Below, one piece after another: positions 25,736-56,637 of a stretch of DNA of 60,789 bases; position 1 is the first letter of the stretch; the number at the start of each line of letters is the position of its first letter. The stretch lies in the NCBI GenBank assembly GCA_009773565.1, contig WSXY01000011.1:1-60789 (forward strand). The letters run 5' to 3'. The notes under the pieces were generated by a model. The model was given only the letters and a program-made list of their open reading frames with translations. It searched no databases and was not told where the DNA came from. The stretch is from Actinomycetota bacterium. GTDB lineage: Bacteria > Actinomycetota > Coriobacteriia > Anaerosomatales > Anaerosomataceae. The translations under genes and the position numbers were made by a program.

Positions 25736-27841
25736 CTAGCGAATCAAACGCACGTGGCAGTACGAGCAGAATGTCGGCTTGTGGCACTTGAAGCACGGCT
25801 CTGCACCATTCTTCTTGACGATCGCAGGGTGGAACGTACGCCATGCCTGCGTCGCTGAGGCACCTGTGTGGTGGCAGCTATCGCACATGAACTGGTTGTG
25901 GCAGTTCGTGCACACTGGCTTGGTGACCTTCTTGGCTGCAAAGTCCGCCTTGTGAGTGTCTTTGTAGTCACCGGCGTGCGGCATCGCGATCTTGTGGCAG
26001 GCCTTGCAGAACTTGGCCTCTACGCCACCGACGCCGTGGCAGTAATCGCACGAATCCTTCTGTGCCGAGTATGCGGCGCTATGCTTCGCGGCCTTTCCGA
26101 GCGCGAGGTTCCGCGTCCAGTCGCCAACCTTGTGCGAAGCCGGCACTGCCTTGAGCTTCACGTGGCAGTTCACGCAGAACGTCTTGTCCTCGTGGCACTT
26201 CTCGAAGCACTGAGCGGTACCGCCTGATGCCACCGGCACCGGGTGCTGCTTCTGCCATGCCACGCCGTTCTTGGCACCAGTGTGGTGACAATCGGAGCAC
26301 AGCTCCTTGAAGGTGTGGCAGTTGGCACACGTGGCCGGTGTCTTGCGACCTGACACGTGATTCTTCTTGAAGGTGTCGGGGTGCGGCATCTCCATACCGT
26401 GGCAGCTCTTGCAGAACTTCGCGTTGGTTCCGCCGGGACCGTGGCACACATCGCAACTATCGATCGCCTTTGTTGCGGCAAGCGTGTGCTTGCCGGAGGG
26501 TGCTGCGGGAGTGCCAGGGTACTTCGTCACGGTCAGCTTGTCGCGCAGCCACTTAGCGTCTTTGTGTGACGCCGGCAGCGGCTTGAGCTTGACGTGGCAA
26601 TCGACGCAGAACTTCTGCTCATGGCACTTGCCGAGACAGCCCTTCACACCATTGGTGGAGACGGCCTTGGCGTGCTGCGTGCCCCACTTGACCTTGGGAT
26701 CGTACTTCCAGTTCGATGCGGTGCCGTGGTGGCATTCGTTACAGAACTGGTAGTTCGTCTTCTTGGTGTTGTGGCACAGATCGCACTTGGCTGCCTTGGT
26801 CTTGGCGAGCTCGGGGTGCGACTTCGTCTTGAACTCTTCGGGGTGCGGCATCTCCATGCCGTGGCAGTCCATGCAGAACTTGTCGACTACGTGGCAGGTG
26901 CCGCAGTAGTTGATCGACTGCACCTCGGAGATCGGGAAGATGTGCTTGGTCTTGGTGCTTCCGCTGTAGGCGGCGGGCTGATCGTCAGCGCCCTCAAGAT
27001 CAGCTCCGACTTCCGTCGACTCTTCGGATGCCTCGGTCTCTGCCTCGCCCGTGAGCTTCTCGAACGTCGGCTTGCCCGTCGCGCGGTCTATGCGCGCCGT
27101 GGCCAACTTGGCGTGACCCTTAGGATAGAAGTCAGCACCATTGTGGTTGGCGGGCTTCAGCTTGAAGTCGGCCGGGTGGCATGCCGAGCACTTGCCCGGA
27201 GCCTTCTTGCCGTCTTTCGGCGCCTCGTTCGTGAGCGTGTGGCAACGGAAGCACGCTGTCATGGACATGAAGTCCGCATGCTTCTCGGAAATCTCGCCGG
27301 TCTTCGGGTTCTTGTTGACCATCTCGTAGTTCTTCTCGGGATGGGCAACACGGTTGTGACACACGGTGCAGTGGATCTCGTTCTCCTCGTGCACAGCGTG
27401 GTCGATGATGATCCCCTTGCTCGGGGTCACCACACGATTCTCCATGTTGTGGCACTGCGTGCACTGCTTGGAGCCCATGTGCAACTCGTTCAGGGCCAGC
27501 TTGCTCTCGGGGTTCAGCGGTGTCTCGTTTGTTTTCGTGTACAGCTGATACGCACCGATAACGCCGGCCTTGACCTTGTAGTACGTGAACGTCAGAGGAT
27601 CGGCGTTCACCGGCTCATGGCAGCTTAGACATGAAACCGTACTATGCGTGCCCGCACGGTAGGTGTTCATGGCATCGTCTTGCACGGAGTGACAACCCTC
27701 GTTACAGAACCAGTAGGTTGACGACGCACCGTACGCAAAGACGATGAACGCGGCCAAACCCAGGAGGACAACACCCGTCCAAATAATGAAACGTGGTCGC
27801 CGTACCGGATCTTTGAACCCGGCCAATGAGATCTTCGCCAT
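25736..27841 (-). CDS. Membrane-anchored multiheme cytochrome c with about 24 heme sites
   Basis: A 701-residue c-type cytochrome anchored by one N-terminal helix (about 18-39), with the rest outside the membrane. I count 21 CxxCH motifs and three CxxxCH motifs (CNEGCH at 46, CLGKCH at 402, CFEKCH at 545), so up to 24 hemes. Six lie in the N-terminal part (46-222). An acidic linker (about 260-290) follows. Then come three similar six-heme modules (313-430, 463-575, 598-701), each with the order CxxCH, FC-x-x-CHGMEMPH-like, CxxCH, CxxCHH, C-CH, FC-x-x-CHVK-like. Such proteins carry electrons to extracellular or periplasmic acceptors. ATG 27841 has GGGGGT six bases upstream. The 267 bases up to the chemoreceptor gene show no feature I trust. 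Confidence 0.93.
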   Translation of the reverse strand: MAKISLAGFKDPVRRPRFIIWTGVVLLGLAAFIVFAYGASSTYWFCNEGCHSVQDDAMNTYRAGTHSTVSCLSCHEPVNADPLTFTYYKVKAGVIGAYQLYTKTNETPLNPESKLALNELHMGSKQCTQCHNMENRVVTPSKGIIIDHAVHEENEIHCTVCHNRVAHPEKNYEMVNKNPKTGEISEKHADFMSMTACFRCHTLTNEAPKDGKKAPGKCSACHPADFKLKPANHNGADFYPKGHAKLATARIDRATGKPTFEKLTGEAETEASEESTEVGADLEGADDQPAAYSGSTKTKHIFPISEVQSINYCGTCHVVDKFCMDCHGMEMPHPEEFKTKSHPELAKTKAAKCDLCHNTKKTNYQFCNECHHGTASNWKYDPKVKWGTQHAKAVSTNGVKGCLGKCHEQKFCVDCHVKLKPLPASHKDAKWLRDKLTVTKYPGTPAAPSGKHTLAATKAIDSCDVCHGPGGTNAKFCKSCHGMEMPHPDTFKKNHVSGRKTPATCANCHTFKELCSDCHHTGAKNGVAWQKQHPVPVASGGTAQCFEKCHEDKTFCVNCHVKLKAVPASHKVGDWTRNLALGKAAKHSAAYSAQKDSCDYCHGVGGVEAKFCKACHKIAMPHAGDYKDTHKADFAAKKVTKPVCTNCHNQFMCDSCHHTGASATQAWRTFHPAIVKKNGAEPCFKCHKPTFCSYCHVRLIR

Positions 27842-28108
27842 CAACATACCCCCGTCTCGCGGGACACAGACCAACATGACATACGCAGACGCCTCCTCTT
27901 TCGAAGAAGCGCTTTTCCCTCTAGTTATGGGTGTTCGTCACCCAGGCTACCGTCCCTGCAAAAAAATGCGATTTTCGTGCACGAGATTGACTACCCGACC
28001 GGCACCCATCGGATCCACCCCGGTCCCCTCCCGCTCTTCTCCGCGCTAACTCTAGTGGAACGCTTGTGAATGAACAATACAAGCGGGGTCACTTTGAGCA
28101 GATTCGGC

Positions 28109-29269
28109 CTAGCGAACAACCATGATGTCGACGAGGGCGTTCAGTTCGACGATAGCCGACGTTATCTGCCTCGACGCCTGGGCCGCCTGCTGCGACACGG
28201 TGGCAACCTCCTTCATCGAGATGACGACCTGATCCGACGCGGTGCGCTGCTGCTGCGTCGCGATGGATATCTGTTTGGCGGCGTCGGTCGTCTCCTCAAC
28301 CTGTAGCACGATGCGCTCGAGAGCATCTTGGGTATTGGTCGCCATCTCGCGTCCTTCGGCTACCTTCTTGGCGGCTTTCTCCGTCTGCATAATGAGCGCC
28401 GACGTGGACGCCTGCATCTCCCGAACGACCCTGCCGATCTCCCGCGTCGACTCGGTGACCGACTCGGCAAGCTTACGAATCTCCTCGGCGACAACCGAGA
28501 ATCCCTTACCCGCGTCACCGGCACGAGCCGCCTCGATGGCGGCGTTGAGCGCAAGGATCTTCGTCTGCTCCGCGATCTCGTCAATGATCGTAAGGACCCG
28601 ACCGATTTCCTGGCTGCGTTCCCCGAGCGCAAGGATGCGGTCGGACGACTGCTGGGTGGTGACACGAATTTCCTCGATGCCGTCGGTCGTCTGCTGGACC
28701 GCGTGCATACCCTCTTCCGCGCTAGCGAGGGTCCGCTCCGCTACCCGAACAACCGCTTCGGAGTTGTCGGCGATCTGACTGGAGGTCTGGGCGAGCTCCT
28801 CGACTGTTGCCGATGTTTCAGTTACCGCTGCTGCCTGCTCGGACGAGCCGGATGCCTGCTGTTCGGCAGCTGCAAGCACTTCAGCGGTGAGCGTTCGCAT
28901 GTTGGTGTTCGCGCCTCGAATCTGATCGAGTAGGGAGGCCGCATTCGCAAAGACCCGCTCGAGTTCGCTGGTCAACGCCTCCAGCCCCTTGCTCTCGTGT
29001 GAAGCGATGCCAAGGGCGCGGCCCGCGGTACCGAGCACGCTCGACAAAACCCTTTCAGCGATACGAGACGAGATGAAGCTACACAACGTGCCCAGGCCGA
29101 CGCCCGCAGAGATGCAGGCGACGAGGAATACCCACCACGCAACCACGCTCTTCGGCTCGACGAAGATGAGCGAGAACACCGCGAAGAAGAGGCCGATCGC
29201 AGCACCGGCTCCCACCATGTTCCCGAGCATTATTCGACCCGTACCGCCGAGTCTGGAAGTGTCGTTCAC
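28109..29269 (-). CDS. Methyl-accepting chemotaxis protein without a sensor domain
   Basis: A 386-residue chemoreceptor. Two membrane helices (about 14-55) are separated by only a few residues, so there is no extracellular sensor domain. A long coiled-coil signalling domain follows with the conserved hairpin tip [20 protein letters not shown] and [19 protein letters not shown] 29269 is chosen because AGGAGG lies four bases before it. Lying upstream of the cytochrome gene on the same strand, it may sense membrane redox or energy state; that is inference. Confidence 0.9.
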
Positions 29270-29395
29270 GTATCCTCCTGTCAAAGCCGCGCCGCTCTCC
29301 TCCGGGGGCGCTCAACTCCTGTTCACATACTAGCCGACTCGCCCCTCGGAACGAACCGGCGCTTTGATCGCGGAGAAGGGCGCTCGAATCGAGAC

Positions 29396-29425: not shown

Positions 29426-29529
29426 GTGGCACATAGGCGTTCCGCTGAACGAGAACCGTCCCGGCGTGAGCACCATTTCCGATCGGGCGTGTCCCGGCCG
29501 AGCCGTAGGTCACATCTAGGAGGAGCCTA

Positions 29530-29859
29530 ATGGGTACTGTCACCGTCGAAATCTATGATTTCCCCGCCGAGTCCACCTGTTTCAGTGGAGGCTGAGGTCC
29601 TACCTGGTCTCCGGAGGAGATCACCACAATTATCCGTGCGGAGATGGAGAACCGATTTGGTGATTCCGCCTCTATCGTCTACCACGACACAACCCAAGAC
29701 GAGACGAGAGCGAAGCACGCGCACATCATCGATACGATTCGCGAACAAGGGCTCGTGTACCCGGTGACCGTGATTGACGGCGAGCCCCTCTACGAGGGAT
29801 CTGTTTCGTATCCGGCGATTCTTCGAGCAGTACAAACACGGCTCTCGGAGACGTGCTAG
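29530..29859 (+). CDS. Putative selenoprotein: small thioredoxin-like protein with in-frame UGA
   Basis: The frame begins at ATG 29530 behind AGGAGGAG, runs 21 codons (MGTVTVEIYDFPAES..., then TCFSGG), meets TGA at 29593-29595, and continues in the same frame GPTWSPEEITT... for 87 codons to TAG-type closure at 29859. Read through, it gives a 109-residue protein with a beta-alpha-beta pattern and a late YPVTVIDGEP that looks like the cis-proline loop of thioredoxin folds. The UGA falls where such proteins carry a redox cysteine (C-F-S-G-G-U-G-P), so selenocysteine is the best reading. A hairpin follows the UGA at a suitable distance (29605-29623). Alternatives: a genuine nonsense mutation, or translation only from ATG 29644, which has no good ribosome-binding site. 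A terminator follows at 29890. Confidence 0.6.
29605..29623 (+). promoter_or_regulatory. SECIS-like hairpin after the UGA
   Basis: TGGTCTCC (29605-29612) pairs with GGAGATCA (29616-29623), eight pairs with one G-U, around loop GGA. The first loop base is G and begins 17 bases after the UGA. Bacterial SECIS elements are short hairpins with a G near the start of the apical loop, within about 16-37 bases of the UGA. The fit is structural only; SelB specificity cannot be judged by eye. Confidence 0.45.
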
Positions 29860-29889: not shown

Positions 29890-29920
29890 GCCGCCCGAAG
29901 ACTCTCCGGGCGGCTTTTCT
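29890..29920 (+). terminator. Rho-independent terminator of the putative selenoprotein gene
   Basis: GCCGCCCG (29890-29897) and CGGGCGGC (29907-29914) form an eight-bp GC stem with a nine-base loop followed by TTTTCT. It lies 30 bases after the stop at 29859, so the small gene is monocistronic. It also touches the end of the convergent DnaJ-like gene. Confidence 0.85.
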
Positions 29921-30221
29921 ACACTCCGGACCGACTGTGACGCTCACGATAGAGGCCAACGAGACCAGCGTCCCAGAAGACCTCCCAGCCAGAACGAAGT
30001 CGGGCCTCTCCAACACGAGACTCGTCATAGCGCCGACGAAGAACCGGATCACCCAATACGGCATACGCCTCATTGATGAGCCGCATCCTGTGAGCAGTCC
30101 GGGGAGTCGCCGCCGTGTCAGGGTGATACTTCAGCGCCAAAGCGCGATACGCCTTCTCGATGACTTCCGGCTCCGCGTTGCGCGCCACCTGTAGAGCCGC
30201 GTAGTACTCGGGTACCGTCAC
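29919..30221 (-). CDS. Short J-domain (DnaJ-like) protein
   Basis: A 100-residue protein with an N-terminal J domain (about 3-66): YYAALQVARNAEPEVIEKAY, the HPD tripeptide in LALKYHPDTA, and INEAYAVLGDPVLRRRYD. The J domain would stimulate a DnaK-type Hsp70. There is no G/F, zinc or substrate-binding region, so it is a co-chaperone of the short type. It starts one base after the penicillin-binding protein gene stops. Confidence 0.9.
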   Translation of the reverse strand: MTVPEYYAALQVARNAEPEVIEKAYRALALKYHPDTAATPRTAHRMRLINEAYAVLGDPVLRRRYDESRVGEARLRSGWEVFWDAGLVGLYRERHSRSGV

Positions 30222-32213
30222 TTAGTGCTCCCTGCAGACCGTATCCGGAACAAGGCCCGGCTCTAAGTCGATCTCGACGGTGTTGGGACAACGACTGTTC
30301 GCAAGAAGGAAGGTGTCCGTGCAGACGGTGACCCTTGTCTGCGTCGCGGGTCCGGATGCTTCTGCAGAACCGGTGCCATTGGGCTTCACAGTGGCCGTGC
30401 GCGCTCCAACGGCCACGTCCATGAAGTACTTCCAGATGCGCGCAGGGTAACTGCCGCCCGTCACACGAATGCCGTGGACGTTCATCATCGAAACCTGGCC
30501 TTCCGGGTGCCCCACCCAGACAGCGGTACACAGGTCTCCGCTGTACCCCACGAACCAGGCATCACGATACGCCTGAGTGGTGCCGGTCTTACCTGCAGCC
30601 CAGCGGTTGAGCCGGGCCGCCTGACCCGTCCCCTTCTGCACGACGTCTCCCAGCATTGAGGAAGCCTGCTGCGCGACCTTGACCTCGATAGCGCGCACTC
30701 CCGTTTGCTCGGGCTGATAGACGAGAGTACCGACGTCATCCGTGACCGTTAAAATACCCGTCGGTTCCCGACGAATGCCACCCGAAGCAATCGTCCCGTA
30801 CGCTGAGGCCATTTCCAGCGGCGAGACACCCGTTCTCAGACCTCCGAGCGCGATGGCGGGGTTCGGCTCGAGCGGCGTGGTGATGCCCATCGCCTTCGCA
30901 GTTTTGACAACATCCTCGGCGCCGACCTTCATGATGAGCCGCGCGTAGACGGCGTTCACCGACCAGTCGGTCGCCGCAGCAAGTGTCATGGACCCGCTCG
31001 TGTAGCTGTTCTCGTAGTTCTGAACCGTCCACACACCGTCTGTCACCTCGACCGAGTACGGTGCGGCAGAGAATACGTCCTTCGCTCGCACCCCCTCGCC
31101 AAGCGCGGTGACGAGAACGAAGGGCTTGAACGCCGATCCCGGCTGGCGACGCCCTTGCACCGCGAGGTTGAACTTGTCTTTCGTGAAATCCCTGCCGCCC
31201 ACCATAGCGAGGACTCTGCCGTTGGTATGGTCGACACAGACGATTGCGACAGATGGATCCTTCACATCCGGGAGGTTCACCCTTACCGCCAGCTCGGCAC
31301 GTTTCTGCAACGCGGGATCGATGGTGGTGTAGACCCGCAGTCCCCCCTGGAAGACCATCTCCGAGCCGAGCTCATCAATGAGCGCCTGTTTTACGTACTC
31401 GACAAAGTACGGTGCCACGGCCGGGACGGCCGATGGCGCGACGAGCACAACGGGCTCAGCGACTGCAGCACGCTCCTCTGCCACCGAAATATAGCCCTGA
31501 ACGCGCATCTTACCGAGCACAACATCGCGCCGACGCCGGGCAGCATCAGGGTCAGAAGAGGGACTATAGCGAGACGGAGACTGGACAACTCCCGCGAGTA
31601 GAGCCGACTCCGAGAGCGTCAAATCGACCGCATGCTTTCCGAAGTAGCGAGTTGCCGCGCTCTCGACCCCATAGGAACCTTCACCAAAGTAGACGAGGTT
31701 GAGGTACGTCTCGAGCACGCGCTGCTTGTCGGCCCTTGTTTCGAGCTGATAGGCCATAAGCGCTTCACGTATCTTGCGGGTAAGCGTTCTCTCCCCGTCG
31801 GTGAACAGGAGTTTGACCACCTGCTGGGTGATGGTGCTCCCGCCCTGGCGAGTCTCCCCGCTCTCCGCATTCGCCCTAAGCGCGCGGAGGATAGCTTCTG
31901 TATCGACGCCCTTGTGTTTGTAGAAGCGTTCATCCTCGATGGCGATGACCGCATCGCGCATGGACTCGGGAATCTGGTCGAACGCGACGACCGTCCGATC
32001 CTGCTCCCCATGCCACTCCGCGAGAACTGTCTCATCCGCAGCGTAGACAATGGATGTCCGCGCCGGCCGGAACGCCGCGCCATCCGCAGAGAGGTTTGGG
32101 AGCGTGCGCGACAGCTGGAAGAGATACGCGCCAACCACCAGGAAGAATACACACAACACAGCGAGCACGCTCGCTGCTATGCGTAGTATGCGCGTCAGAC
32201 GAGGGGAGTACAC
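30222..32213 (-). CDS. Class A penicillin-binding protein (glycosyltransferase-transpeptidase)
   Basis: Bifunctional peptidoglycan synthase of 663 residues: cytoplasmic tail, one membrane helix (about 10-33), GT51 domain (about 55-230; IEDERFYKHKGVD, GGSTITQQVVKLLF, YLNLVYFGEGSYGVE) and transpeptidase domain (about 300-600) with SxxK in RQPGSAFKPF, SVN in DWSVNAVYA, and KTGTT. The C-terminal tail is short with two cysteines. It is cotranscribed with the short DnaJ-like gene. Confidence 0.95.
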   Translation of the reverse strand: MYSPRLTRILRIAASVLAVLCVFFLVVGAYLFQLSRTLPNLSADGAAFRPARTSIVYAADETVLAEWHGEQDRTVVAFDQIPESMRDAVIAIEDERFYKHKGVDTEAILRALRANAESGETRQGGSTITQQVVKLLFTDGERTLTRKIREALMAYQLETRADKQRVLETYLNLVYFGEGSYGVESAATRYFGKHAVDLTLSESALLAGVVQSPSRYSPSSDPDAARRRRDVVLGKMRVQGYISVAEERAAVAEPVVLVAPSAVPAVAPYFVEYVKQALIDELGSEMVFQGGLRVYTTIDPALQKRAELAVRVNLPDVKDPSVAIVCVDHTNGRVLAMVGGRDFTKDKFNLAVQGRRQPGSAFKPFVLVTALGEGVRAKDVFSAAPYSVEVTDGVWTVQNYENSYTSGSMTLAAATDWSVNAVYARLIMKVGAEDVVKTAKAMGITTPLEPNPAIALGGLRTGVSPLEMASAYGTIASGGIRREPTGILTVTDDVGTLVYQPEQTGVRAIEVKVAQQASSMLGDVVQKGTGQAARLNRWAAGKTGTTQAYRDAWFVGYSGDLCTAVWVGHPEGQVSMMNVHGIRVTGGSYPARIWKYFMDVAVGARTATVKPNGTGSAEASGPATQTRVTVCTDTFLLANSRCPNTVEIDLEPGLVPDTVCREH

Positions 32214-48216: not shown

Positions 48217-48465
48217 TCAGAAATCAAGCATCTCGATACGGGCTGTCCAGCGACACCCTGCGCGTAGTAGCGCTACGTCGGCGTCGGCCCCCTCGAGCCA
48301 CGGAACCCTGAGCGAGATACCGCACAGCCCGCCAATGCCTTTCGGCGTCGGAATCGTCACAGTCGTGACATCGGCTTCGAGCAGCGTGCGCTCACCGACG
48401 AGCGCGTCGTGCGTCGAGCCGAACCCGTACACGACGTACGGAACGGTTGGCTCTCTCACGCGCAA
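48217..48465 (-). CDS. DUF3343 putative Se/S carrier-like protein
   Basis: An 82-residue protein with YVVYGFGSTHDALVGERTLL, a variable middle, and GIGGLCGISLRVP holding a conserved cysteine-glycine pair. DUF3343 is described as a selenium/sulfur carrier-like family, often beside a class V aminotransferase, as here. It overlaps that gene by ten bases and is last in the 13-gene operon. Confidence 0.85.
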   Translation of the reverse strand: MRVREPTVPYVVYGFGSTHDALVGERTLLEADVTTVTIPTPKGIGGLCGISLRVPWLEGADADVALLRAGCRWTARIEMLDF

Positions 48466-49622
48466 ACCGTCCTCATCGAGGCAAGTGCATAGTCGATATC
48501 GGCAGCCGTAACGCCGTAGCCGATGCCGAAGCGGACTGCCCCGCTCTGACGTGTGCCTGCCGTCTCATGCGCCCATGGGGCGCAATGGAGGCCCGCGCGC
48601 ACGGCGATCTTGTACGTGACGTCCAGCTCGAACGCGATCCTGTCAGCGTCGAGGTTGTCGTGCACGATGCTCACGACCGGAACCCGTTCCTCCGTAGGTG
48701 GTGGTCCGAGAACTCGCATGCCCGGGATCTCGAGTAGTCCTTCGTGAAGCATGCGGGTAAGCCGACGCTCTTCGGCGCGGAGCGCGTCTCCATGTTCGAG
48801 CAGGTAGCGTGCGGCCGCGCCAAGACCTGCGACGGCCGGCGTGTTCGGTGTTCCGGCCTCGTAGCGATCCGGCCGCGTCTTGGGCTGGTTTGGATCCTCG
48901 GAGTCGCTGCCGCTTCCGCCCTGGAGAAGCTCCGCCGGCTCCACGCCCGGCGCGAGGTAGAGCACGCCCACACCCTGTGGCCCGAGGAGACCCTTATGGC
49001 CGGAGGCGACATAGGCGTCGGCGCCAAGCGCGGCGAGGTCCAGGCGCAGGTGTCCCGCGGCCTGCGCGCCATCGACGATAAGCAGGGCGCCTGCAGCGTG
49101 AGCGATATCCGCGAGATCACCGACCGGCTCGATGGTTCCCAGGACATTCGACGCATGCTGACAGATGACCGCACGGGTCGGCGCCTGGCTCACCGCGCGC
49201 TCGACGGAATCCGGATCGATACGACCGGCATCATCGGCCGCAACGATATCGACGCGTACCCCGCTCGCGGCGAGGGAGCTCAGGGGGCGTGCCACGGAGT
49301 TGTGCTCGGTGGAGCCTACGACCACGCGGTCCCCCGGCTGCAGGAGCCCCTTGAGGGCAAGGTTGAGACCGAAGGTGCAGCCCGGTACGAAGGCGAGATC
49401 CTTCGAATCAGGCACACCGAGGAGCGCGGCAACATCGGTTCGCGACTGAAGGATAAGCCGCGAAGCAGCGAGTGCGAGCGCATGAGCGGCCCGGCCGGGA
49501 TTGCCACCTGCCGCGGTCATGGCATGCACGACCGCGTCAACGACGGGCTGCGGTTTTGGCCACGACGTCGCCGCGTGGTCAAAGTAAGTGATTCGATCTG
49601 TCACGAGTGTGCTCTCACCCAT
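48456..49622 (-). CDS. Class V aminotransferase / cysteine desulfurase family protein
   Basis: A 388-residue PLP enzyme: TYFDHAATSWPKPQPV start, PLP lysine in YVASGHKGLLGPQGVGVLYL, and a distinctive RAGLHCAPWAHE with a candidate catalytic cysteine. This RAGLHCAP form marks the family often found with selenium-dependent molybdenum hydroxylase and DUF3343 genes. It may release selenium or sulfur from (seleno)cysteine; the substrate is inferred. It overlaps mog by eight bases. Confidence 0.88.
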   Translation of the reverse strand: MGESTLVTDRITYFDHAATSWPKPQPVVDAVVHAMTAAGGNPGRAAHALALAASRLILQSRTDVAALLGVPDSKDLAFVPGCTFGLNLALKGLLQPGDRVVVGSTEHNSVARPLSSLAASGVRVDIVAADDAGRIDPDSVERAVSQAPTRAVICQHASNVLGTIEPVGDLADIAHAAGALLIVDGAQAAGHLRLDLAALGADAYVASGHKGLLGPQGVGVLYLAPGVEPAELLQGGSGSDSEDPNQPKTRPDRYEAGTPNTPAVAGLGAAARYLLEHGDALRAEERRLTRMLHEGLLEIPGMRVLGPPPTEERVPVVSIVHDNLDADRIAFELDVTYKIAVRAGLHCAPWAHETAGTRQSGAVRFGIGYGVTAADIDYALASMRTVCA

Positions 49623-50100
49623 GTCCTCCGCCAGCCATCATCTCGGCTGCATGCTCGAGCTGGTCGGCAACCATAACGAACGACTCGCGGACGGCTTTCT
49701 CGCTGCCCGGAAGGTTGATGATGAGCGTCCGTCCGCGCTGTGCAGCGACGCCACGTGAGAGCATCGCACGCTTAGTGATGAGAAGACTCTCGGCACGAAT
49801 CGCCTCGGCGATGCCGGGAACCAGCCGATCGCAGTGCGCGAGCGTGACCTCAGGGCACACATCGCGAGGACCAAGCCCCGTGCCGCCGGTCGTCAGGATC
49901 ACGTCGACTTCATCAACGTCTGCCATCTCGACAAGCGCATTCGCGATGACGTCGTGGTCGTCCGGAACGACGTGATACGCCGCAATCGACCAGCCGCGCT
50001 CCTCGGAGAGCGCTATCAGAGCCTTGCCCGACGTGTCCTCGGCTGAGCCGGCGGAACGCGTGTCCGAGCAGGTCAGGACTCCGATACGGAGCTCGTGCAT
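49615..50100 (-). CDS. mog: Molybdopterin adenylyltransferase (MogA/MoaB family)
   Basis: A 161-residue MoCF-domain protein that adenylates molybdopterin before metal insertion by MoeA. Seen are [21 protein letters not shown], the active loop ILTTGGTGLGPRDVCPE, and the late LIINLPGSEKAVRESF. It overlaps the MOSC gene by 28 bases. Confidence 0.93.
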   Translation of the reverse strand: MHELRIGVLTCSDTRSAGSAEDTSGKALIALSEERGWSIAAYHVVPDDHDVIANALVEMADVDEVDVILTTGGTGLGPRDVCPEVTLAHCDRLVPGIAEAIRAESLLITKRAMLSRGVAAQRGRTLIINLPGSEKAVRESFVMVADQLEHAAEMMAGGGHG

Positions 50101-50576
50101 GTTCCCTCCCCGAGAGACTGAACGACGATGCTATCACCGGTACGTACGGTACCACCCTGGTGGACGACCGCGAAGACGCCTTCGCGAGGCATGACGCAGT
50201 CGCCGGCCTGGTAGAAGATCGCGCACTTGGTGTGGCAGACCTTGCCGATCTGGCTGATCTCGAGAACGGCCTCTTCGCCGATGCGGATGACGCTGCCCAC
50301 CGGCAACGCCACGACGTCGATGTCGACGGTGGTGATGTTCTCGGCGAAGTCGCCCGCCTGCACGTCGAGGCCCTTGGCAACCATCTTGTCGATGGACTCC
50401 TGCGCGAGAAGGCTCACCTGGCGATGCCAGTCACCTGCATGCGCATCGGTCTCGAAACCGTGATCGGGGCGCAGAACACCTTCAGTGCCACGCGTCTTGC
50501 GGACGGTCTTCTTCGCAGACAGGTTGACTGACGTGACGGTGCCGGGACCGGGAAATGCGGTGCTCTCGCTCATCAT
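50073..50576 (-). CDS. MOSC domain protein
   Basis: A 167-residue stand-alone MOSC domain: [35 protein letters not shown], and the cysteine-bearing [24 protein letters not shown] domains are related to the C-terminal domain of Mo-cofactor sulfurases and are thought to carry sulfur or bind the cofactor. ATG 50576 overlaps the moaC stop (ATGA). Confidence 0.92.
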
Positions 50577-51058
50577 GAATCCTCTCGCAGGTAATGGCCG
50601 GATTTCCCGCCCTCTTTTTCGAGCAGCATGACATCGGTCACGACCATTGCGCGGTCGACCGCCTTGCACATGTCGTAGATCGTGAGCGCGGCGACAGAAG
50701 CCGCTGTGAGCGCTTCCATCTCGACACCCGTCTTGCCGTCGGTTTCGGCAACAGCGGTGATGCGAACCGCGCACTCCTCGGCTGCCAGATCGACGCTTAC
50801 GTGCGTGAGGGCGAGCGGGTGGCACATCGGAATAAGATCCGACGTACGCTTAGCCGCCATGATGCCCGCAACGCGCGCTACGGCGAACACGTCGCCCTTC
50901 GGCGCACGACCCTCGACGATCATCGCGAGTGTCTCTGCTCGCATCTCCACGAGCGCAGTCGCGACCGCGCGTCGGTGTGTGACGTCTTTGTTGGCGACAT
51001 CGACCATGCGGGCGGCACCGCTTTCGTCGAGATGGGTGAGCCTGGGAGCGTCGTCCAC
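50573..51058 (-). CDS. moaC: Cyclic pyranopterin monophosphate synthase MoaC
   Basis: Second enzyme of molybdopterin synthesis. The 161-residue protein has [36 protein letters not shown] and [17 protein letters not shown] with the active-site Lys, His and acidic residues. GTG 51058 is chosen because GGAGG lies five bases upstream and spans the moaA stop, so translation is coupled. Confidence 0.95.
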
Positions 51059-51059
51059 G

Positions 51060-52085
51060 TCAGCCTCCGATCTGGGACATGCGCCTGATTGTACCCACTC
51101 GCATGTTGTGGCTCTCCGGCTTTGCCGCGAGCGCCTGCTTGATGAGTTCGCGAACGTCCGCGTCGGTTCCTGTACGCAACACAGCCCGGGCATCGAGCTC
51201 ATCGTCACTGAAGAGGCATGTCCTCAGGCGTCCGTCGGCGGTCAGCCGCAGGCGGTTGCACTCGCCACAGAAGTGATGCGAGAGCGGCGAGATGACCCCG
51301 AGCGTCCCGGGCGCACCAGGGAAGCGATAATAGCGCGCAGGACCCCAGCCACCAGGTGCATCAGGTTTCGCGACTGGCTGGAGTTCCCCATAGCCCGCAG
51401 CAGCGCCTTCGGCCGTCAGTCGGGCGAGGATCTCATCGGCGGGAACCTCGTCGGCCTCGCTCCAGCCCTCGCCTTCCGATGAGGAACAGGCGACGCCTTC
51501 CTCAGCGCCGCCGACCGGCATGTACTCGATGAAGCGCACATGGATGGGTCGCTCAAGCGTCATCTTCGCGAATCCGAGCAGGTCCTGCTCGAGCCGGCGT
51601 ACCACGACCACGTTGAGCTTGACGGGATCCATCCCCGACTCGAAGGCGGCCTCAAGTCCGGCAAGGGCGTCCTTAAGCTTGCCACCCCGGGTGATCTGCG
51701 AGTACACCGTCGGATCGAGCGTGTCGAGCGACACATTGACTCGCTTGAGCCCCGCCTCAACCAGCTCGTGAGCGAATTTCGGGAGCAGCGTGCCATTCGT
51801 GGTGATGGCGATCGACTCGATGCCGGTCAGCTCGCGAAGCCGCCGCACATGATCGATGAGCCCCACCCGCACGAGCGGCTCGCCACCCGTCAGTCGGATC
51901 TTGCCGATTCCCTCGCCGGCGGCCACTGCGGCGAAGCGCTCGATCTCCTCGAACGAGAGAAGGGCATCATGCGGCTTCCACGGCACACCCTCAGAGGGCA
52001 TGCAGTAGACGCACCGCAGGTTACATCGATCGGTCACGCTGATGCGAAGGTAATCGATTCTGCGGCCGTGTCCGTCAGTCGCCAT
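51060..52085 (-). CDS. moaA: GTP 3',8-cyclase MoaA
   Basis: Radical-SAM enzyme that starts molybdopterin synthesis from GTP. It has [20 protein letters not shown] (first cluster, CxxxCxxC), [10 protein letters not shown], and the C-terminal second-cluster motif [18 protein letters not shown]. An insertion of about 20 acidic residues (about 220-245) is unusual. ATG 52085 is chosen; AAGGAG is nine bases before it, while the ATG at 52094 is too close. Confidence 0.95.
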
Positions 52086-52608
52086 CGCGAGCATCTCCTT
52101 GCAAGAAGGTGCGCTCTACGAGTCCAGCAAGCGCCTCAACGTCGTCGAGGGCGATGACCGGCACACCGTCGGGCCACAGGTCAGGATTGTCCGTGACCAG
52201 CGCAAAGAGCTCGCCGGGTGTGGAGATCATCTCGTCGGAACGCCCGAGACGAGAGACCTCGATGCGGACGTTTCCCGCACGCTTGAAGCCTTCGGTCAGC
52301 AGGATGTCGCAGCCACCAGCCTCGGCTTCGCCAGCGATCTCCTCGAGCGTGCGCTCGCGCTCGAGTGCGCGCACGACCGCGAACTGCGTCGGCGACGAGA
52401 TCATCGTGACGCGTGAGCCCGCGCGCGCGTGGCGCCAGGAATCCTTGCCCGGTTGGTCGATGTCGACCTCGTGGACGTGATGTTTGCACGTGGCGACGCA
52501 GTACCCGCGCGCGGTAAGCGCACGAATGAGTCCTTCCATGAGCGTCGTCTTGCCGGAGTCGCTCTTTCCGACGACCGAGACGACGGGGATGCCGGTCCCC
52601 TCGCTCAT
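52075..52608 (-). CDS. mobB: Molybdopterin-guanine dinucleotide biosynthesis adaptor MobB
   Basis: A 177-residue P-loop GTPase: SVVGKSDSGKTTLMEGLIRA (Walker A), CKHHVHEVDIDQPGKDSWRH and DILLTEGFKRAG. It helps MobA. It overlaps moaA by 11 bases and follows the 71-residue protein by one base. Confidence 0.92.
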   Translation of the reverse strand: MSEGTGIPVVSVVGKSDSGKTTLMEGLIRALTARGYCVATCKHHVHEVDIDQPGKDSWRHARAGSRVTMISSPTQFAVVRALERERTLEEIAGEAEAGGCDILLTEGFKRAGNVRIEVSRLGRSDEMISTPGELFALVTDNPDLWPDGVPVIALDDVEALAGLVERTFLQGDARDGD

Positions 52609-52609
52609 A

Positions 52610-52825
52610 TTAGAAGCAGCCCAGATCGCAGTTCTTGACCTTGATGCCGGCCTGATCCGCGGCCGTACCGGCGACCTTGTACGCAACACCGAACGACTCG
52701 GCGAGCTTGCGGAGCACGGGGCACGTGATGCGGCCGTCGACGGCTGCAGCTTGCACCGCTTCTGCGAGTTCGGGCGTGATCTGTCCGGACCAGCGCGGGT
52801 CAATCTTCTTTGGTGAGTCGCTCAT
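52610..52825 (-). CDS. 71-residue conserved protein ending CDLGCF
   Basis: A small protein with helical centre (ELAEAVQAAAVDGRITCPVL, then RKLAESFGVAYKVAGTAADQ) and a fixed tail AGIKVKNCDLGCF. I recall similar short proteins with a G-I-K-I-x-N-C-x-L-G-C-F end beside molybdopterin genes in anaerobes, but know no function. Three cysteines (one in ITCPV, two in CDLGC) could bind a metal or carry sulfur. The ATG 52825 has AAGGAGG upstream and overlaps the moeA stop by four bases (ATGA), so its position is fixed within the pathway operon. Confidence 0.85.
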   Translation of the reverse strand: MSDSPKKIDPRWSGQITPELAEAVQAAAVDGRITCPVLRKLAESFGVAYKVAGTAADQAGIKVKNCDLGCF

Positions 52826-54051
52826 TCTGAGCCCTCCTTGCGATCGAGGCGGATGCATGCCGCCATTGAACCCGCCGGGAAGAACGTCTCCCCTTCGGGC
52901 AGGACGAGCAGACAGTTGGCGCGGTGCATCGATGTAAGCATCGCCGATGACTGCGCACCTGCGAGAGAAGCAACGTATGTGCCGTCGGGCATACGTTCGG
53001 TCACTGCACGAAGGAAGTAACGGCGATCCGCCTTCTTCTTGACGTCATGGCCGAGAACGACCGGGTGATGCGGGCGGTCGAGCGCGGTGTGCCCCTGCAT
53101 CTTGAGAACGACCGGCCGTACGAACAGCTCGAATCCGACCATGGTCGACGTGGGATTGCCCGGCAGGCCAAAGAACGGCGTACCGCCGATAGTGCCGTGT
53201 GTCTGCGGCGCACCGGGGCGCATGGCGACCTTCCAGAAGTCCATGTCGCCGATCTCCTCGAGCACGTCTCTGACGACATCGTAGTCACCCATACTGACGC
53301 CGCCGGTGCTGACCATGAGGTCATAGTCAGGCGCCTGCGAGAGGATCGCACGGGTATGCACGACCGTGTCGCGCGCGACCTCGAGGATGAACGGCTCGCC
53401 GCCGGCGTCGATGACCTGCGCCGCAAGCGTGTATGAGTTCGAGTTGCGAATCTTGCCCGGGCCGGGGTACTCGTCGATCGCGACAAGCTCGTCACCGGTG
53501 GCGACGATCGCGACGCGTGGGCGCCGGTGGACGAGCGGCTCCGCACAGCCTACGGCCGCCATGAGCCCGACCGCAGCGGACCCGACGATCTCGCCAGCGG
53601 TGAGCACCGTCTCGCCGGAGCGAACGTCTTCGGCCTTGCGGCGGATGTTCTCGCCGTCACGCGCGGACGTCATGATGACCGCGACCGCGCCATCGCCTTC
53701 CTCGGCCGTATGCTCCACCATGATGACGGCTTCGGCGCCCTCGGGCACCGGTGCGCCGGTCATGATGCGCGTCGCCTCGCCCGCACCGATCGGCACCTCT
53801 GGAAACGCGCCTGCCGCGACGTGCTCGACGACCCGCAGGCGAACCGGGGTGTCCTCGCTCGCGCCTGCAACGTCGGCCACGCGCACGGCATAACCGTCCA
53901 TTGCGGAGTTATCGAACGGCGCCACATCGATGTCCGAGACGATATCGGCAGCAAGCACGCGGCCCAAAGAATCGATCGCTCCCACACGCTCAGCATCGAG
54001 CGCGACGATGCGCTCGAGCACCCTGCGGCGCGCCTCCTCGACAGAGATCAT
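52822..54051 (-). CDS. moeA: Molybdopterin molybdotransferase MoeA
   Basis: Inserts molybdenum or tungsten into adenylated molybdopterin. The 409-residue protein has the N-terminal FDNSAMDGYAVR, MTGAPVPEGAEAVI, the MoCF loop STGGVSMGDYDVV, PGAPQTHGTIGGTPFFGLPG and the C-terminal beta domain. It overlaps both neighbours by four bases. Confidence 0.95.
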   Translation of the reverse strand: MISVEEARRRVLERIVALDAERVGAIDSLGRVLAADIVSDIDVAPFDNSAMDGYAVRVADVAGASEDTPVRLRVVEHVAAGAFPEVPIGAGEATRIMTGAPVPEGAEAVIMVEHTAEEGDGAVAVIMTSARDGENIRRKAEDVRSGETVLTAGEIVGSAAVGLMAAVGCAEPLVHRRPRVAIVATGDELVAIDEYPGPGKIRNSNSYTLAAQVIDAGGEPFILEVARDTVVHTRAILSQAPDYDLMVSTGGVSMGDYDVVRDVLEEIGDMDFWKVAMRPGAPQTHGTIGGTPFFGLPGNPTSTMVGFELFVRPVVLKMQGHTALDRPHHPVVLGHDVKKKADRRYFLRAVTERMPDGTYVASLAGAQSSAMLTSMHRANCLLVLPEGETFFPAGSMAACIRLDRKEGSE

Positions 54052-55454
54052 TCCGACTCCTCCTCGGCCACCGACACCCTGTCGGGACGCGTATAGACGA
54101 CGAGCTTGCCACCCCGCGCGTACCCGACGAGCGTGACACCAACGGTCTGAGCGACCTCTGCGGCAAGATCTGTCACCGCGCTACGTGACACGACCACCGG
54201 AACCCGCGCTTTCGCGGCCTTGACGGCCATCTCGTACGAGATGCGACCCGTCGTGAGCAGCACCGCTCCCTCGATCGGCACGCGGTCGATCCACGCGCGT
54301 CCGAGGACCTTGTCGACGGCGTTGTGACGCCCGACATCCTCGCGTACGAGAAGAACTTTCCCATCGCGGCCGAGCGCGCACGCATGCATGCCGCCCGTAT
54401 CGCGATATGCCGGCGAGGAGCGCGCCATCTGGCCCATCATGTCGTAGAGCTCACCGGAGTCGACCGTCACATCAGACGTGACCGCCTCAAGACCGAGCGT
54501 GTGGCCAAGCGAGGCAAATGTGACACCCTTGCCGCAGCCCGCCGTGATGTAGCGACGACGGTAGACGAGGTCATCGGGCACCGGCTCGTCGCTGCACACG
54601 AACACCATGCCGCGCTTGCTGTCGACGTCCGTGCCGAGGAACGCTTCGCGATCGTTCAGGAGACCCTCGGACACGAGGAACCCGACCGCCATCTCCTCGA
54701 GATCGTCCGGCGAGGCTTGCACGGTCGCAATCTCGACGCCGTTCATGTCGATGGTGACTGCCCGCTCGCTCGGCATGCCGCGCTGTCTGCGTGTACCGAC
54801 TTCGATGACCGAGACCCGGACATCTGTTTCCGCGTCGTTCCGCACGATCGGGAACGTGCCGTCACGAACGTCGCTCAGGTCTTCGGGAGTGTTCACGTTC
54901 ACCAGGCTGACGAGGTCGGGGTCGGCTACCCGAAGCGCTGCGAGCGGCACCTCGACGACGCGCACCGAGGAGAGCATCGCAACAAGCCTGCGACGACCTG
55001 ACTCGAGCACGCGCTGGGCGACCGGGAGGCAGTCACGGTGATAGAGCGCGAGAAGCGGCTCGGGGCCCTTTTCGCCGACCGGCATCACGACCTGGGCGTC
55101 TCCGCGCGCGTCCCAGAGGAGCCGGACGACTTCGGGCCTCAGCCATGGCATATCAGCGGCGACCGCAAGCACCCAGTCGTCCTCGGCCGCACTCAGCGCC
55201 GTTACGAGGCCACCGAGCGGTCCCTGGTACGCGACCTCGTCCTGCAACACGCGGACGGCGGTGGGAAGAGTGGTGTCAGCAAGGGCTTCGGGACGGTTGG
55301 TGACTACGACGACCTTCCGGCATACCCCGGCGACCACCTCGACGACGCGAGTCAGCAGCAACTCGCCATCGACCGTCAGGAGCGTCTTATCGACACCCAT
55401 TCGCATCGAACGTCCACCCGCCAGCACGGCGGCGGTCACCGGAAGTCGTTCCAT
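54048..55454 (-). CDS. MobA-FdhD fusion protein
   Basis: A 468-residue fusion. The N-terminal about 200 residues are a MobA-type guanylyltransferase (AAVLAGGRSMRMGVDKTLL, VLAVAADMPWLRPEVV) that makes molybdopterin-guanine dinucleotide. The rest is FdhD (about 215-460; YRRRYITAGCGKG with its cysteine, and VREDVGRHNAVDKVLG), the sulfurtransferase that sulfurates formate dehydrogenase. ATG 55454 begins the first conserved motif (MERLPVTAAVLAGG); the upstream frame is unconserved. The FdhD cysteine motif has one cysteine (CGKG) where some members have CxxC. Confidence 0.92.
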   Translation of the reverse strand: MERLPVTAAVLAGGRSMRMGVDKTLLTVDGELLLTRVVEVVAGVCRKVVVVTNRPEALADTTLPTAVRVLQDEVAYQGPLGGLVTALSAAEDDWVLAVAADMPWLRPEVVRLLWDARGDAQVVMPVGEKGPEPLLALYHRDCLPVAQRVLESGRRRLVAMLSSVRVVEVPLAALRVADPDLVSLVNVNTPEDLSDVRDGTFPIVRNDAETDVRVSVIEVGTRRQRGMPSERAVTIDMNGVEIATVQASPDDLEEMAVGFLVSEGLLNDREAFLGTDVDSKRGMVFVCSDEPVPDDLVYRRRYITAGCGKGVTFASLGHTLGLEAVTSDVTVDSGELYDMMGQMARSSPAYRDTGGMHACALGRDGKVLLVREDVGRHNAVDKVLGRAWIDRVPIEGAVLLTTGRISYEMAVKAAKARVPVVVSRSAVTDLAAEVAQTVGVTLVGYARGGKLVVYTRPDRVSVAEEESE

Positions 55455-55464
55455 GTCCTTCGTC

Positions 55465-56637
55465 CTATCCTTGCAGGTCAACGGGCGGCGTGATGTCGGT
55501 GCCCGGGGCAGACATGCAAGTATACTCTCCGGGCGTATCGCCGGTCTCGATTGCGCGCACACGAACGGCGGTCGCTTTGAATGCCGCGGTAACAGCCACG
55601 CCAGGCACCAAAGCAAGTTCGGCCACCGACGCACGCGAGACCCGGGCAGCTATTCTGAGAGTGCCCGCGGCCAGGGTCACGCGAAACGTAGAACCCGCGT
55701 GTTCGATCTCCGCGACTGTGCCCGCCAGACGGTTTCTCGCTGACGACGGTGGTAGCTCCTGCGTGCCAGCGTAGATCGTCACGTCTTCCGGTCGGACTCC
55801 GACGAGAACCTCGGTCCCCTGCTGCGCGCGCGATACGGCGTAGACCGTCACTCCGCCGCAGTCGATGGCGGCGACACCGCCCTCTGTTTCGCGGACGATG
55901 CCCTGGAGAGGAGGCTCCATGCCGAGGAACTCCGCAGTCCAGTCATCCGCCGGAAGCCCGAAGATGTCATCCGCACACCCCTGCGCGACGATGCTGCCGT
56001 CTCGCATGACCGCGACGTCGTCGGCCACAGTGAGGGCCTCGTCCTGGTCGTGTGTGACGTAGAAGATGGTGATCGGACTCTCGCGAAAGATCGAGGCGAA
56101 ATCGCGCGCGAGTCGCCACTTCATCAAGGGGTCGAGCGATGCAAGCGGCTCGTCGAGGAGCAGAACTCTCGGCTCAAGCACCATAGCGCGTGCGAGCGCG
56201 ACGCGTTGAGCCTCGCCCCCCGAGAGCGTGAGCGCCGACCGCGTTTCCCACCCCGGCAACCCGACACGCTCAAGACCCTCCGAAACGAGAACAGCAACGC
56301 GGCCTGAAGGAACCCGACGAAGTCGTAGCCCGTAGGCAACATTGTCGGACACCGTGCCCTTGAACAGATACGGCCGCTGGAATGCCGCAGCCATCGACAT
56401 ACGCGCCTCGATATCGTGCGGTGTCACGGCCACCCCGTCGAGCAGAACCTGCCCGACGTCCGGCTTCTCGAGGAGGCCGACGATCGACAGCAGCGTCGAC
56501 TTCCCCGATCCAGATGGGCCGAGAAGCGCCATCGTTCGTCCCGGGCGGATCTCCAGGCGGTCGACGTCGACCACCCGCTTGCCCCGGAAGGACTTCCGAA
56601 TGCCCTGAATCGCGATGCTCGCTGGCTTCATAGTCAC
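55465..56637 (-). CDS. tupC: Tungstate/molybdate ABC transporter ATP-binding protein
   Basis: A 390-residue ABC ATPase: Walker A GPSGSGKSTLLSIVG, signature LSGGEAQRVALARAM, Walker B VLLLDEPLASLDPL, H-loop VTHDQDEA, and a C-terminal extension with TOBE-like regulatory domains (about 240-375). It is read from a GTG whose GTGA overlaps the tupB stop; ATG 56631 is also possible. Tungstate rather than molybdate is inferred from the TupA partner. Confidence 0.93.
   Translation of the reverse strand: MTMKPASIAIQGIRKSFRGKRVVDVDRLEIRPGRTMALLGPSGSGKSTLLSIVGLLEKPDVGQVLLDGVAVTPHDIEARMSMAAAFQRPYLFKGTVSDNVAYGLRLRRVPSGRVAVLVSEGLERVGLPGWETRSALTLSGGEAQRVALARAMVLEPRVLLLDEPLASLDPLMKWRLARDFASIFRESPITIFYVTHDQDEALTVADDVAVMRDGSIVAQGCADDIFGLPADDWTAEFLGMEPPLQGIVRETEGGVAAIDCGGVTVYAVSRAQQGTEVLVGVRPEDVTIYAGTQELPPSSARNRLAGTVAEIEHAGSTFRVTLAAGTLRIAARVSRASVAELALVPGVAVTAAFKATAVRVRAIETGDTPGEYTCMSAPGTDITPPVDLQG

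Follow-up and report, generated by a model that had tools for sequence, protein, structure and literature searches.

The locus raises the question of whether a reading frame that meets a TGA after 21 codons is the remains of a broken gene or a single gene whose TGA is read as selenocysteine (Sec). The window, by which we mean the whole stretch of DNA analysed, is 60,789 nucleotides long and comes from contig WSXY01000011.1 of an Actinomycetota genome. An earlier note, made from the letters alone, had proposed a new thioredoxin-like selenoprotein here.

A reading frame interrupted by a single TGA

The gene occupies 29530–29859 of the forward strand and comprises 109 codons and a TAG stop. A Shine-Dalgarno sequence (AGGAGGAG, 29518–29525, forward strand) stands 4 nt ahead of the ATG at 29530; the in-frame TGA, codon 22, lies at 29593–29595, and direct reading of the frame gives 87 further sense codons before the TAG at 29857–29859. 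Downstream, also on the forward strand, the sequence itself shows a G+C-rich hairpin at 29890–29918 that resembles a terminator (GCCGCCCG-(9 nt)-CGGGCGGC) and runs into TTTT, which a simple terminator scan passed over because its loop is 9 nt long. The earlier note had claimed a ribosome-binding site, a TGA at 29593, an open frame with its own stop, and a terminator, and each was found in place. Despite its broken look, 29530–29859 is almost certainly one intact gene of 109 residues that is read through its TGA, and the evidence below supports a selenoprotein as the best reading of it by a wide margin. Judged from sequence, it is very nearly certain that Sec would be inserted at UGA codon 22.

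Relationship of the read-through product to DUF1462 and ArsD

The product had been described as thioredoxin-like, which proved right and can be made more specific. The read-through protein matches Pfam DUF1462 (PF07315) over residues 13–101 with 35.5 bits (cut-off 25), and the match recurs at E ≤ 0.1 in 23/23 members of our alignment (A1), with distant members below the cut-off. Among solved structures, its closest relative is 1xg8 (S. aureus SA0798, E 1e-6), which is classed as a thioredoxin fold (SCOP c.47.1.17; PMC3091736). The fold assignment rests on this homology; an AlphaFold model from the single sequence (pLDDT 46) was too poor for use. Nine residues are invariant in A1 (C17, G21, U22, G23, P24, W26, E30, I31 and P78). 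Among these, Cys17 is encoded at 29578–29580 within C-F-S-G-G-U, five residues ahead of Sec22, and Pro78 at 29761–29763 within YPVTV, where it probably takes the cis-Pro position of thioredoxins (both codons on the forward strand).

With the DUF1462/YuzD type, the protein shares a Pfam match over nearly its whole length, the same size, a YP(V/L)(T/I) cis-Pro segment and, through the classification of 1xg8, the thioredoxin fold. The motif differs: 1xg8 carries C-A-S-C without Sec, whereas here it is C-x4-U-G-P-S-W, so that the YuzD-type CxxC is absent and a two-column gap is needed to bring Sec onto the second Cys of C-A-S-C. By its Pfam match, it is a DUF1462 protein that lacks the CxxC of 1xg8; no selenoprotein is listed for DUF1462.

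A second relationship emerged from profile comparison. Alignment with ArsD, the arsenite metallochaperone (hhalign; 93% probability, E 2.6e-7), sets C-F-S-G-G-U-G-P-S-W against ArsD C-C-x-T-G-V-C-G-P-S, ungapped around Sec, with U22 on ArsD Cys18 and C17 on Cys13. Both have a C-x4-C/U-G-P-S segment before helix 1 (ArsD: PF06953, NF033727; structures 3ktb and 3kgk), and 13/23 A1 members weakly match Pfam ArsD. The protein nevertheless scores below the ArsD cut-offs (18.4 of 27 bits for PF06953 and 15.9 of 90 bits for NF033727), lacks the C-terminal Cys pairs, and retains the positions of Cys13 and Cys18 (the latter as Sec) without Cys12. Considering the scores and the absent Cys12, it is not a member of ArsD but a remote relative, and ArsD (Cys18) and YuzD are the closest Cys-containing counterparts found. 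In this respect, the family links the YuzD and ArsD branches.

Other small thioredoxin-like selenoproteins are more distant. Sec.1/Sec.2 (PF13192) and Sec-thioredoxin (UxxC) are likewise small selenoproteins of thioredoxin fold whose Sec lies near helix 1, although they use CxU, UxC or UxxC motifs and belong to other Pfam families; the read-through product matched none of their models. The VPGUxxT selenoprotein (NF041383) is thioredoxin-like and has a non-Cys residue at the second position (UxxT), and the HUIPC selenoprotein (NF047660) is thioredoxin-like as well, but scanning the read-through product against NCBIfam returned neither. One relative (L062) gave a non-significant score to the HUIPC model (E 0.16).

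A predicted Cys-Sec site

We propose that the gene product is a small cytosolic selenoprotein with a thioredoxin fold, belonging to the DUF1462/ArsD branch. UGA codon 22 would be read as Sec by SelB and the Sec-tRNA (selC), directed by a hairpin whose GGA loop starts 17 nt downstream. The selenol would then sit just before helix 1 in U-G-P-S/T, the place held by the nucleophilic Cys in the C-G-P-C of thioredoxin, which the motif resembles with its second Cys replaced. Cys17 would most likely close a selenenyl-sulphide with Sec22, with Pro78 providing the cis-Pro loop. As for its role, the protein most likely performs housekeeping thiol/selenol redox chemistry in anaerobes, such as the reduction of disulphides, peroxides or oxidised thiols. 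While the gene, its conserved TGA, the constraint on the hairpin, the Sec machinery and the fold family can be read from the sequences compared here, Sec insertion, the Cys-Sec pair and redox activity are what we infer from them. Taken as a whole, including both Sec insertion and the redox role, a Cys-Sec thioredoxin-fold redox protein has in our estimate a probability of roughly 0.6. If so, DUF1462, a family without known function, gains a testable chemical role.

The main competitor keeps the Sec and changes the task. Here the protein would bind or chaperone a soft metal or metalloid in the manner of ArsD, with Cys17 and Sec22 in place of ArsD Cys13 and Cys18 and with As(III), Hg(II) or another ion of this kind as ligand. 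The profile alignment that places these two residues on the ArsD cysteines speaks for it, as do the weak ArsD matches within A1, and in ArsD itself Cys12, Cys13 and Cys18 act in the transfer of As(III) to ArsA (PMC12607644). The loss of Cys12 and the scores below the ArsD cut-offs count against it, as does the lack of a conserved neighbour common to the clades (based on clustered neighbours, of which part were annotated). In addition, Cys17, while nearly invariant, is missing from some distant members and is Trp in at least one of them (L162); Sec rather than Cys is therefore the constant residue. We consider an ArsD-like binder a serious minority possibility, and the Cys-Sec redox protein remains our preferred reading.

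A hairpin constrained at the nucleotide level

The hairpin with a G-first loop, which had been noticed 17 bases after the TGA, is UGGUCUCC-GGA-GGAGAUCA at 29605–29623 of the forward strand, and its apical GGA loop (29613–29615) does start 17 nt past the TGA. The published bacterial SECIS (bSECIS) model describes a loop of 3–9 nt on a stem of 4–16 bp, with G in the first two loop positions, the pattern N1-G[G/U]-N-N2, a spacing of 16–37 nt and an MFE of at most −7.5 kcal/mol (PMC13188914). Scored against this model, as the earlier note had suggested, the hairpin falls within it in spacing, loop, stem and energy (minimal hairpin MFE −9.3 kcal/mol). The minimal 19-mer is more stable than chance (z −3.1), whereas a 40-nt window of this sequence alone folds no more stably than chance (z −0.5), and the SECIS case therefore rests on comparison. 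A search of Rfam gave no match; to our knowledge, it holds no general bacterial SECIS model.

The comparison was made across the order. Codons 27–31 (S27-P28-E29-E30-I31) had a codon identity of 1.00 in 38 species, where usage predicts 0.21–0.62, while codons 23, 24, 25 and 32 beside this frozen block stayed within about 0.1 of the usage expectation. Ser27 is encoded by TCT in 34/34 sequences that have Ser, although TCT is rare (9% of the Ser codons in nine of the window's genes). The frozen bases form a stem of 7–8 bp with a G-first loop, and the distance from the TGA to N1 of the loop is exactly 16 nt in 50/61 loci and 19 or 22 nt in the other 11, which have one or two extra codons. Among 47 distinct stems, 98.8% of stem cells are paired and 29 were changed on both sides, compared with 6.2 in shuffles; when the register was slid along the stem, the pairing signal was lost.

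One example is the pair that closes the loop, formed by the second base of codon 28 and the third base of codon 29. This pair is kept in 80/81 loci (about 71 distinct genes, ten of them fetched twice), and it has been swapped repeatedly among CG, UA, AU, GC and GU through matched changes in the two codons. CG arises from Pro CCG with Glu GAG or Ala GCG, UA from Leu CTG with Glu GAA, AU from Gln CAG with Ala GCT or Ser TCT, and GU or GC from Arg CGG with Ala GCT or GCC. The hairpin is a clear case of an amino acid change at one codon being matched by a wobble change in the next, and such changes preserve the SECIS loop pair inside a coding region.

Selenocysteine machinery

All four genes whose presence the earlier note had wanted checked (selA, selB, selC and selD) are in the source genome, on its contig C16. 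These are a tRNA-Sec with a TCA anticodon, SelB (379.7 bits), a SelA ORF beside selB recognised by position and sequence, and SelD (370.6 bits), which has an in-frame TGA of its own. This selD (L112, G000:C16:24695-25612; motif KAGUAAKWG) is itself a selenoprotein gene and serves as a useful internal positive control.

These results bear on a different possibility, that the TGA is read as some other amino acid through near-cognate suppression or a changed code. The frame would be open under any such reading. However, TGA is a normal stop in other genes of the window, the hairpin combines SECIS spacing and loop with constraint at the nucleotide level, a tRNA-Sec with the TCA anticodon is present, and the aligned ArsD residue is Cys. 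We regard a non-Sec residue as very improbable, and continue with Sec.

Across the order, SelB was above the cut-off in 48 of the 61 genomes that carry the gene. Of the 13 genomes without a SelB above it, five have a strong selC. Five more have a TGA-containing selD, which is complete in four of them and cut off by the contig end in G053, and their contigs stop close to or within the sel cluster; the remaining three are drafts with none of selB, selC and TGA-selD. In G013 and G010, the contig runs past selD and a PIN gene and stops short of the expected selA/selB; it ends (L115, L116) in a large polymorphic-toxin-like ORF adjoining the PIN gene. These contig ends probably explain why selA, selB and selC are missing from the two assemblies. 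The contigs of G025 and G053 also break at selD, and that of G046 runs off within selA. One genome that is 99% complete (G040) lacks all of SelB, a strong tRNA-Sec, SelD and the gene. G021 and G051, by contrast, have Sec machinery (G051 has selC and a selB divided between contigs) and the gene was not detected in them; it is therefore either dispensable there or was missed.

Conservation across the TGA

A search of the family and order found the gene in 54/61 genomes, with exactly one in-frame TGA in 54/54. Going by kinship and gene content, the class is probably Coriobacteriia and the order Anaerosomatales/OPB41. Class-wide (298 genomes), all 63 confident matches likewise contained exactly one TGA, including two from another family of the class at 32–33% identity. 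Profile searches added TGA-containing members from a second class (10 genomes) and a third (27 genomes), for a total of 100 genomes of Actinomycetota over the three classes. The TGA codon itself was read in about 71 distinct genes, the remainder being an automatic count of one TGA within the match; wherever the sequence was read, the TGA stood at the same codon of C-x(3-4)-U-G-P-S-W. Selection was purifying on both sides, with a mean pN of 0.23 against a pS of 0.66 upstream of the TGA (pN<pS in 663/666 pairs) and 0.30 against 0.62 downstream (666/666 pairs). The earlier note had named a lack of conservation across the TGA as grounds for giving up the proposal; what we found is strong conservation.

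The same data bear on two remaining explanations. In the first, the TGA is a genuine stop that ends a leader of 21 codons, and another gene starts from the ATG at 29644, which has a GGAG close before it. That GGAG is too near the ATG, the ATG (codon 39) is present in only 15/38 relatives and is often GTC or ATC in the others, the DUF1462 similarity spans residues 13–101, and the arrangement would leave the most conserved residues (U22 to I31) untranslated. Homologues starting at this ATG had also been named as evidence that would undo the proposal. Considering the unconserved ATG and the conservation across the TGA, we rejected the internal start as highly improbable, and the selenoprotein claim stands. 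A pseudogene or sequencing error, with the TGA as a nonsense mutation newly arisen in a decaying gene, has nothing in its favour except the TGA itself and was rejected as wholly implausible, as the TGA occupies the same codon in every member read, down to about 25–33% identity, with purifying selection on both of its sides.

Homologues with Cys at the TGA, which had been put forward as support for Sec, were found in part. Cys occupies the Sec position at the superfamily level only, in ArsD (Cys18) and YuzD (the second Cys), which are neighbouring families; a narrow search for close Cys orthologues with the same motif found none. Scanning 84,980 genomes for one pattern of the motif with Cys for Sec gave six matches, all of them out-of-frame chance matches; this back-translated pattern could not catch TGA members because Cys stands in place of Sec. 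The absence of Cys orthologues is therefore suggested by the one pattern scanned. A TGA-specific pattern had no match in viral contigs. A tree of the Sec, ArsD and YuzD rows had too little resolution to show when Sec arose. As a tentative and rather doubtful extension, the family may be a Sec-obligate lineage kept across three Actinomycetota classes that has no Cys orthologues. Its Cys17 and Sec22 would then make up a mixed Se/S site, for a soft metal(loid) or for redox chemistry, where ArsD has Cys13 and Cys18, and the protein would be a selenium equivalent of that arsenite metallochaperone.

Novelty of the family

The gene appears to represent a new selenoprotein family. The earlier note did not know it as a described selenoprotein, and this agrees with what we could find: neither PF07315 nor PF06953 is listed in the consulted part of a 2026 inventory of 119 prokaryotic selenoprotein families (PMC13188914), and none of the NCBIfam models of June 2026 fits the read-through product or six distant members. 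In the open literature, we found no paper joining DUF1462 with selenium, and papers on "selenoprotein" and "ArsD" jointly were only unrelated ones. Within one order, almost all near-complete genomes have the family, and its members occur here and there in two more classes. Under standard rules, annotation pipelines would truncate a gene of this kind after 21 residues or place its start at an internal ATG, and homology methods that pair a TGA with Cys would tend to miss the family because close Cys orthologues were not found.

Neighbourhood and further candidates

The gene stands alone between a methyl-accepting chemotaxis protein (28109–29284), divergent from it, and a convergent pair consisting of a small DnaJ-domain protein (29919–30221) and a penicillin-binding protein (transglycosylase/transpeptidase; 30222–32213), with a NapC/NirT-type multihaem cytochrome nearby (25736–27877); all four are on the reverse strand. 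Members of the same cytochrome and penicillin-binding protein families border the gene at most syntenic loci of the order, as they do in the two distant class members, and these shared flanks speak for vertical inheritance. The other two classes have different neighbours, and none was shared between clades (neighbours were clustered, those of distant members without annotation). No operon partner pointing to a substrate was found.

Elsewhere in the window, Pfam confirmed the class V aminotransferase (48456–49622) and the FdhD domain (within 54051–55634) that had been reported. A small ORF at 48217–48465 is DUF3343-like by eye and, with the aminotransferase, forms a putative selenium-associated pair; this region (48217–49622) adjoins molybdenum-cofactor genes. 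The ORF at 54051–55634 combines a MobA-like NTP transferase domain with the FdhD domain, likely as a MobA-FdhD fusion, and is adjoined by the molybdenum-cofactor genes (49615–54051, judged by eye).

Further candidates were seen in other genomes. Three loci (L134, L141 and L142, from G316, G453 and G343) contain another small gene of thioredoxin-like type, in which they share an in-frame TGA within P-S-G-U-(S/R)-S, followed in L134 and L141 by a G+C-rich hairpin at about +17 nt; this gene is possibly another selenoprotein paralogue. Finally, a relative at L133 (G521:C6:38202-38474) carries an in-frame TGA within GGUGP, with the segment C-E-P-A-D-C-G-P close behind it, which may reflect a Sec plus Cys pair or a different start.
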